NCBI GenBank assembly: GCA_040752895.1
Contig: JBFMHN010000002.1
Coordinates: forward strand, 62,001-126,000
Reading direction: 5' to 3'
DNA from: Pseudomonadota bacterium
GTDB taxonomy: Bacteria; Pseudomonadota; Alphaproteobacteria; GCA-2746255
DNA length: 64,000 nt
The position numbers and the translations under genes are program-made. This document shows, piece after piece, positions 41,675 through 43,047 of this stretch. Within the stretch, counting starts at the first letter, position 1. Every line of letters starts with the position of its first letter. Below the pieces are notes generated by a model, which was not told where the DNA came from, did not search any database, and saw nothing but the letters and a program-made list of their open reading frames with translations.

Positions 41675-42871
41675 CTAAAGGGTCTCGAACGCCTGGGCAA
41701 GGTCTTCCTGAAGGTCTTCCGGGTCCTCTAGGCCGATGGAAATCCGGATCAGATTTTCGCCTATTCCCATGCGAAGGCGCTCCTCCTTTTCGACGTTCTG
41801 GTGGGTTGTCGTCGCCGGGTGCGTGATCAGGCTTTTCGTATCCCCGAGGTTGTTCGAGATATCGATCAGTTTCAGCGAGTCGAGGAAACGGAAAGCCTCC
41901 TTTTTGCCGCCATTGATCTCGAAAGAGATGACGCTGCCGGCGTCCTTCATCTGGGCCTTGGCGAGGGCGTACTGAGGGTGGCTCGGAAAGCCCGGGTAGC
42001 AGAGCTTCGTCACCCGCCTTTCCTTTTCCAGGAAGGCGGCGATCTTGCGCGCGTTCTCGCAATGTTTTTCGACGCGGAGGACCAGCGTCTCGAGCCCCTT
42101 CAGCAACAGCCACGCGTTGAATGGGCTTAAAGCCGGCCCGGTGTTTCGCAGGAAACGCATATAGTTTTCCTCCGAGAATTCGGCGCTGCACAGGATGGCC
42201 CCACCCAGGCAGCGGCCTTGCCCGTCGATGTGTTTCGTCGCCGAGTAAACGACGATGTCGGCGCCCAGTTCGAAAGGCGACTGCAAAACCGGCGTGGCGA
42301 AGACGTTGTCGACGATGAGCTTCGCCCCCGCCTTGTGGGCGAGCTTGGCGACGGCGGGTATGTCGATGATCTCGAGTGTCGGGTTCGAGGGCGATTCGAT
42401 AAACACCAGCTTCGTCTTTTGGCTTAAGGCGCGCTTCCACTGGTCAAGGTCGGTGCCGTCAACGACGGCGACCTCAACCCCGTAACGCGGCATGACGTCG
42501 CAGGCGACGTAACGGCAGGCGCCGAACAGGGCGCGCGAAACGACCAGCCGGTCCCCGGCCCGCAAATAGCCGGCAAACGCGCCGAAGACGGCCGCCATCC
42601 CGGTCGCCGTCGCGTGGCAGACCTCGGCGCCTTCGAGCAGCGCCATCCGCTCCTCGAACATGGCGACGGTCGGATTCTTGAAGCGGGAATAGATGTAGCG
42701 ATCCAGCTCGCCCTTGAAGGCCATCTCCGCCTGCGCGGCCTCGTCATAGACGTAGCCGGAGGTCAGGAAAAGCGGCTCGCAGGTTTCCTGAAATTGGGTG
42801 CGGCGCTGCCCGCCACGGACAAGCTTCGTGCTGGGCCGCCAGTTTTCCTGATCGGGTTTCCGTTCCGCCAT
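41675..42871 (-). CDS. metZ: O-succinylhomoserine sulfhydrylase
   Basis: PLP enzyme of 398 aa making homocysteine directly from O-succinylhomoserine and sulfide in methionine synthesis. It shows the Cys/Met-metabolism PLP family motifs: YSRFKNPTVAMFEERMALLEGAE, DNVFATPVLQSP, the PLP lysine in YSATKHIDGQGR and the C-terminal RISIGLEDPEDLQEDL. A GAGGAG ribosome site precedes the ATG. The leader carries a SAM-II riboswitch and terminator, so expression should fall when S-adenosylmethionine is plentiful; this supports the methionine assignment. Confidence 0.96.
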   Translation of the reverse strand: MAERKPDQENWRPSTKLVRGGQRRTQFQETCEPLFLTSGYVYDEAAQAEMAFKGELDRYIYSRFKNPTVAMFEERMALLEGAEVCHATATGMAAVFGAFAGYLRAGDRLVVSRALFGACRYVACDVMPRYGVEVAVVDGTDLDQWKRALSQKTKLVFIESPSNPTLEIIDIPAVAKLAHKAGAKLIVDNVFATPVLQSPFELGADIVVYSATKHIDGQGRCLGGAILCSAEFSEENYMRFLRNTGPALSPFNAWLLLKGLETLVLRVEKHCENARKIAAFLEKERRVTKLCYPGFPSHPQYALAKAQMKDAGSVISFEINGGKKEAFRFLDSLKLIDISNNLGDTKSLITHPATTTHQNVEKEERLRMGIGENLIRISIGLEDPEDLQEDLAQAFETL

Positions 42872-42918
42872 CCTGCGCTCCTCAAACCTTGCGGCATAGG
42901 GAAACCTAAGAAACCGAG

Positions 42919-42945
42919 AAAAAACCCTGCCCGCCGGGTCAGGGT
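42919..42945 (-). terminator. Intrinsic terminator in the metZ leader
   Basis: On the minus strand ACCCTG (42945-42940) pairs with CAGGGT (42929-42924), and inner CCC/GGG bases pair as well, followed directly by a run of six T (42924-42919). It lies between the SAM-II aptamer and metZ, about 48 bases before the ATG, so it is an attenuator rather than an end-of-operon signal. It is the clearest intrinsic terminator I could find in the window. Confidence 0.8.
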
Positions 42946-42949
42946 CGTT

Positions 42950-43012
42950 ACCAGGGACCTTTTAGCGGTTTCTTTTCCGTGGCCGCAAGCCGGTCGAACA
43001 AATCACCACGGG
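42950..43012 (-). promoter_or_regulatory. SAM-II riboswitch upstream of metZ
   Basis: The minus-strand RNA matches the metA/SAM-II motif. P1 is a perfect six-pair stem CCGTGG (43011-43006) with CCACGG (42982-42977). The conserved loop TGATTTG (43005-42999) and CGGCTTGCGGCC follow, and the 3' tail has GCTAAA (42966-42961). The pseudoknot stem P2 pairs GACC (42995-42992) with GGTC (42959-42956). This class is known in alphaproteobacteria before metA, metX and metZ and binds S-adenosylmethionine. Confidence 0.9.
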
Positions 43013-43018
43013 GCCTAA

Positions 43019-43047
43019 ACCATAAAAATCGAAGGCCTCGCCGTCAA
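43019..43047 (-). promoter_or_regulatory. Promoter of the metZ riboswitch leader
   Basis: TTGACG (43047-43042) is followed by 17 bases and TATGGT (43024-43019) on the minus strand, five and four of six consensus positions. Transcription would begin near 43012, exactly at the 5' edge of the SAM-II aptamer, which supports both calls. Confidence 0.75.

Follow-up and report, generated by a model that had tools for sequence, protein, structure and literature searches.

A SAM-II riboswitch with a predicted transcription attenuator upstream of metZ, and a class-wide comparison of P2 and terminator arms in Alphaproteobacteria

Background

SAM-II riboswitches were discovered by Corbino et al. (2005; PMC1273637), who reported promoters just ahead of the P1 stem and terminators after the P2 pseudoknot. 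According to the survey of Barrick and Breaker (2007; PMC2258182), SAM-II is the riboswitch most often accompanied by terminators in alpha- and betaproteobacteria, and its P2 interfaces with the platform, by a mechanism that was then experimentally unestablished. Premature termination has been inferred for the metZ leaders of Sinorhizobium and Gluconobacter (PMC9373788, PMC5756330). For metZ of S. meliloti, Scheuer et al. (2022) described a prediction of termination upon SAM binding, and the corresponding riboswitch sRNA RZ, of about 100 nt by Northern, was found at a higher level under high SAM (PMC9373788). In Gluconobacter oxydans, RNA-seq coverage of the metZ leader exceeds that of the gene 20-fold, and predicted terminator and antiterminator conformations were cited (PMC5756330). 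In S. meliloti the metA terminator has no predicted SAM response, and SAM-II leaders of this species affect RNA stability as well (PMC9373788). In the best studied member, upstream of metX, P2 hides the ribosome-binding site (PDB 2QWY).

Here we analyze a SAM-II leader on the minus strand of an alphaproteobacterial contig; "the window" denotes the whole stretch of 64,000 nucleotides that was analyzed. The locus shares with the leaders of Corbino et al. (PMC1273637) the P1 and P2 elements, the core, a promoter near P1 and a terminator between P2 and the gene, and we see no difference of substance, P2 comprising four pairs here. It controls, by prediction, the same gene as the S. meliloti metZ leader (PMC9373788), in which the behavior was measured. 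Both this leader and that of Gluconobacter (PMC5756330) lie upstream of an O-succinylhomoserine sulfhydrylase gene, with RNA-seq support in Gluconobacter and evidence from sequence here. The aptamer class is also shared with the translational metX riboswitch (PDB 2QWY), but here P2 is far from the ribosome-binding site and close to the terminator. The arrangement, i.e. a SAM-II element before metZ with its own promoter and terminator, is already known, and our locus adds one clear member to the known class. What our analysis adds is a class-wide comparative test and a corrected antiterminator partner.

Results and discussion

Aptamer and downstream gene

A first-pass annotation of the window had proposed a complete SAM-II attenuator upstream of metZ, and all of its parts were found on the minus strand, in the proposed order. 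The Rfam covariance-model search, which the annotation had named as a check, identified family RF00521 (SAM_alpha, SAM-II) at 43019-42941 with 67.2 bits against a cut-off of 36 (cmscan, E 6.4e-13), over the full model (1-79); the only other Rfam matches within the window are three tRNAs. The downstream gene is indeed metZ, as its product scores above the cut-off of TIGR01325.

41675-42871, minus strand: metZ, O-succinylhomoserine sulfhydrylase, 398 aa (TIGR01325, 574.7 bits against a cut-off of 510; PF01053)
42878-42883, minus strand: metZ ribosome-binding site GAGGAG, outside the aptamer (sequence)
42941-43019, minus strand: SAM-II (SAM_alpha, RF00521) aptamer (cmscan)
43006-43011, minus strand: P1 5' arm CCGUGG (sequence and cmscan alignment)
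42977-42982, minus strand: P1 3' arm CCACGG (sequence and cmscan alignment)
42992-42995, minus strand: P2 pseudoknot 5' arm GACC (sequence; same in all four congeners)
42956-42959, minus strand: P2 pseudoknot 3' arm GGUC, also the proposed antiterminator 5' arm (sequence, nascent folding, class-wide test)

Along the minus strand the P1 5' arm is followed by GATTTG, the P2 5' arm, CTTGC, the P1 3' arm, CCGCTAAA, the P2 3' arm and the hairpin with its T6 run. All six P1 pairs are perfect and the conserved core (GAUUUG / CUUGC / GCUAAA) is present in the cmscan alignment, as had been claimed from the sequence, and the claimed P2 (GACC 42995-42992 with GGTC 42959-42956) does form four pairs, 5-6 being usual. 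The folding energy of the leader shows no signal relative to shuffles (z 0.04), which is expected of a pseudoknot in G+C-rich RNA. On the evidence of sequence comparison the locus is confirmed as a member of the SAM-II riboswitch family, and it is predicted to bind SAM.

Promoter and terminator

43042-43047, minus strand: -35 box TTGACG (promoter scan; present in all four congeners)
43019-43024, minus strand: -10 box TATGGT, 17-nt spacer (promoter scan; identical in all four congeners)
42923-42946, minus strand: intrinsic terminator hairpin, core CCCUG-A-CCC / GGG-CAGGG, -14.6 kcal/mol (terminator scan and folding)
42919-42924, minus strand: terminator U6 tract (sequence)

The promoter TTGACG-17-TATGGT proposed in the first-pass annotation was recovered with both boxes in place and is conserved throughout the four genomes of the order; a promoter scan over 800 bases yielded this one site, against 0.1 expected in shuffles. 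Transcription would be expected to start near 43012, about one base ahead of P1, and TTGAC occurs 30-45 nt ahead of P1 in about 146 of 173 leaders. The annotated T-run terminator after P2 also stands (hairpin 42946-42923, T6 at 42924-42919) and sits between the aptamer and metZ. A simple terminator scan found one terminator where 0.9 are expected, i.e. not above chance; the case for the terminator is carried by its position and by the relatives.

The genome contains no other SAM-II element, and the order's four genomes carry one apiece; the closest named relative is an uncultured alphaproteobacterium (JAGWAR010000001). The four congeners differ hardly at all in the aptamer and the two promoter boxes, and not at all in the core, but an intact terminator is confined to the genome of the window and L022. 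The other two, L015 and L020, possess the aptamer, but the hairpins after it have diverged and lack a proper U tract. Termination is thus not a conserved feature of this genus, within which the mode of output may have shifted. In L015 and L020 the terminator after the aptamer has decayed, the leader is enlarged by repeats like TGTGCCGCAAGGTTC, and the region folds into a long hairpin instead. That two close relatives no longer have a good terminator shows that the output stage evolves more quickly than the sensor.

Predicted antiterminator pairing in the window

42937-42940, minus strand: GACC in the terminator 5' arm, best predicted antiterminator partner of GGUC (nascent folds, P 0.95-0.98)
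42943-42946, minus strand: GACC named in the first-pass annotation, weaker transient partner of GGUC (-2.6 kcal/mol, nascent folds)
42964-42968, minus strand: CCGCU, part of the conserved aptamer core and predicted to form the outer helix of the antiterminator with GGCGG (nascent fold to 42930)
42931-42935, minus strand: GGCGG, partner of CCGCU, in the terminator loop and the start of the 3' arm (nascent folding)

The first-pass annotation had suggested that without SAM the P2 3' arm GGUC (42959-42956) pairs with GACC 42946-42943, which overlaps the 5' arm of the terminator. We folded the growing transcript, with the pseudoknot and SAM both ignored. This complementarity does exist, and in an RNA ending at 42943 the helix has a pairing probability of 0.66 with four pairs and -2.6 kcal/mol; in the congener L022 it grows to seven pairs with a bulge (-5.1 kcal/mol). 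Nevertheless, its probability drops to 0.03 as soon as 42937 is transcribed, when GGUC shifts to a second GACC (42940-42937) that the annotation had overlooked (P 0.95). With the RNA ending at 42930 the latter pairing reaches 0.98, and the fold gains the helix CCGCU(42968-42964):GGCGG(42935-42931). Moreover, the arm that is common in other leaders is CCCUGACC, which corresponds by eye to the second GACC. We therefore regard it as unlikely that the same attenuator uses the short helix as its antiterminator. The principle of the annotated switch, a P2 3' arm that competes for the terminator 5' arm, is well supported by the enrichment and covariation across the class described below, and only the exact helix gives way to a better alternative.

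The longer antiterminator hairpin is predicted at -12.4 kcal/mol and the terminator at -14.6 kcal/mol, energies that appear close enough for competition. With the terminator 3' arm fully transcribed, the antiterminator probability falls to 0.09 and then 0.01, and in the full-length RNA at equilibrium the terminator is preferred about 100:1; the antiterminator must thus act kinetically, during transcription. Within the window alone, the P2 arm pairs with the RNA that follows it no better than expected by chance (140 of 1000 dinucleotide shuffles do as well), and the claim of an antiterminator therefore rests on the relatives.

Covariation of P2 and terminator across Alphaproteobacteria

At least one SAM-II element was found in 197 of 386 sampled genomes of the class. 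From 231 loci we obtained 174 distinct leaders, among which 101 distinct ones have a P2 of at least four pairs and a separate downstream terminator. Leaders were picked by a regular expression, runs of pairs include G-U, and kinship was controlled only crudely. As a background we used 659 unrelated terminators, 399 from 400 kb of the organism's own genome and 260 from 400 kb of 20 other genomes that had contributed leaders. A MetZ-like frame follows 158 of the 174 leaders, part of the set having been gathered by a MetZ search.

The P2 3' arm can form at least five consecutive pairs with the terminator 5' arm in 71% of the 101 leaders, compared to 17% with shuffled arms, 24% with unrelated terminators of the 20 other genomes and 19% with those of the own genome; for at least six pairs the values are 47% and 5% (background). 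The tetramer GACC is present in the 5' arm of 41% of the SAM-II leaders, versus 5% and 2% of unrelated terminators. Leaders with a different P2 (GCCGG, GGCCGG or GACCGG) mostly have a correspondingly different arm, e.g. GACCGG with CCCGGTC in L072 and GCCGG with CCCGGC in L026. When P2 arms were permuted among leaders, the observed score was reached in 0 of 500 permutations, and with only dissimilar leaders kept in 0 of 2000 (53 leaders) and 9 of 2000 (19 leaders). Nascent folding predicts pairing of the P2 arm with the terminator arm above 0.5 in 94% of leaders (31% when shuffled).

It is well supported by these comparisons, though not significant in the window alone, that the aptamer strand and the terminator strand are mutually exclusive and covary across the class. 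Probably the P2 3' arm has a second role as antiterminator strand in Alphaproteobacteria generally and has evolved together with the 5' arm of the terminator, which would make P2 formation the general coupling between SAM binding and termination. The test lends numerical support to the coupling of SAM binding to termination, which the 2007 survey (PMC2258182) listed as experimentally unestablished, and singles out specific bases as antiterminator partners. Our search of the open-access literature revealed no class-wide test of P2/terminator covariation. In L016 (one family of relatives), L110 and L118, the sequence that separates P2 from the terminator could apparently pair with the terminator arm in another hairpin (e.g. 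GAAGG..CCTTC), and these leaders may have another antiterminator design.

Proposed switch and alternatives

We consider it highly likely that the locus is a transcription-attenuating SAM-II OFF switch for metZ, in which GGUC and CCGCU act as antiterminator on GACC 42940-42937 and GGCGG. Transcription would begin about one base ahead of P1. With SAM bound, the P2 pseudoknot would hold GGUC 42959-42956, the terminator 42946-42919 would fold, a leader RNA of about 90 nt would be released, and metZ would be off. With SAM absent, the free GGUC and CCGCU would fold onto GACC 42940-42937 of the terminator 5' arm and onto GGCGG 42935-42931 of the loop, and this competing hairpin would delay the terminator, so that metZ would be transcribed.

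The aptamer could alternatively act on translation or RNA stability, next to a terminator that is constitutive or unrelated to SAM. Precedents are the metX riboswitch with its hidden ribosome-binding site and, in S. meliloti, both the metA terminator and the stability effects of the leaders (PMC9373788), and two of the congeners have no clear terminator. In metZ, however, the ribosome-binding site (42883-42878) lies about 75 nt past P2 and outside it, and we rejected its direct occlusion on this ground; the class-wide covariation, in turn, links P2 to the terminator arm. Altogether such a mode of action seems improbable to us. It is still less likely that the complementarity of P2 and terminator is a by-product of G+C-rich terminators sharing GACC/GGUC, without any switching: although chance pairing is frequent in G+C-rich RNA (14% of the window shuffles), GACC is found in only 2-5% of unrelated terminator 5' arms in the same genomes, against 41% of the SAM-II leaders, and other P2 sequences mostly go with a matching other arm.

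Neighboring genes

On the same strand metZ is followed by apaG (PF04379, 41607-41188) and the gene for GTP cyclohydrolase I (PF01227, 41172-40492, minus strand), and the three genes may form an operon that the riboswitch controls. The gene immediately ahead of the riboswitch (44085-43072, minus strand) encodes an uncharacterized radical SAM protein (PF04055, below every NCBIfam cut-off seen) and ends 25 bases ahead of the -35 box. A homolog of this protein is encoded upstream in 28 of the 174 leaders, which come from several families; judged by this gene order, the radical SAM gene is a conserved neighbor of a putatively SAM-regulated gene.
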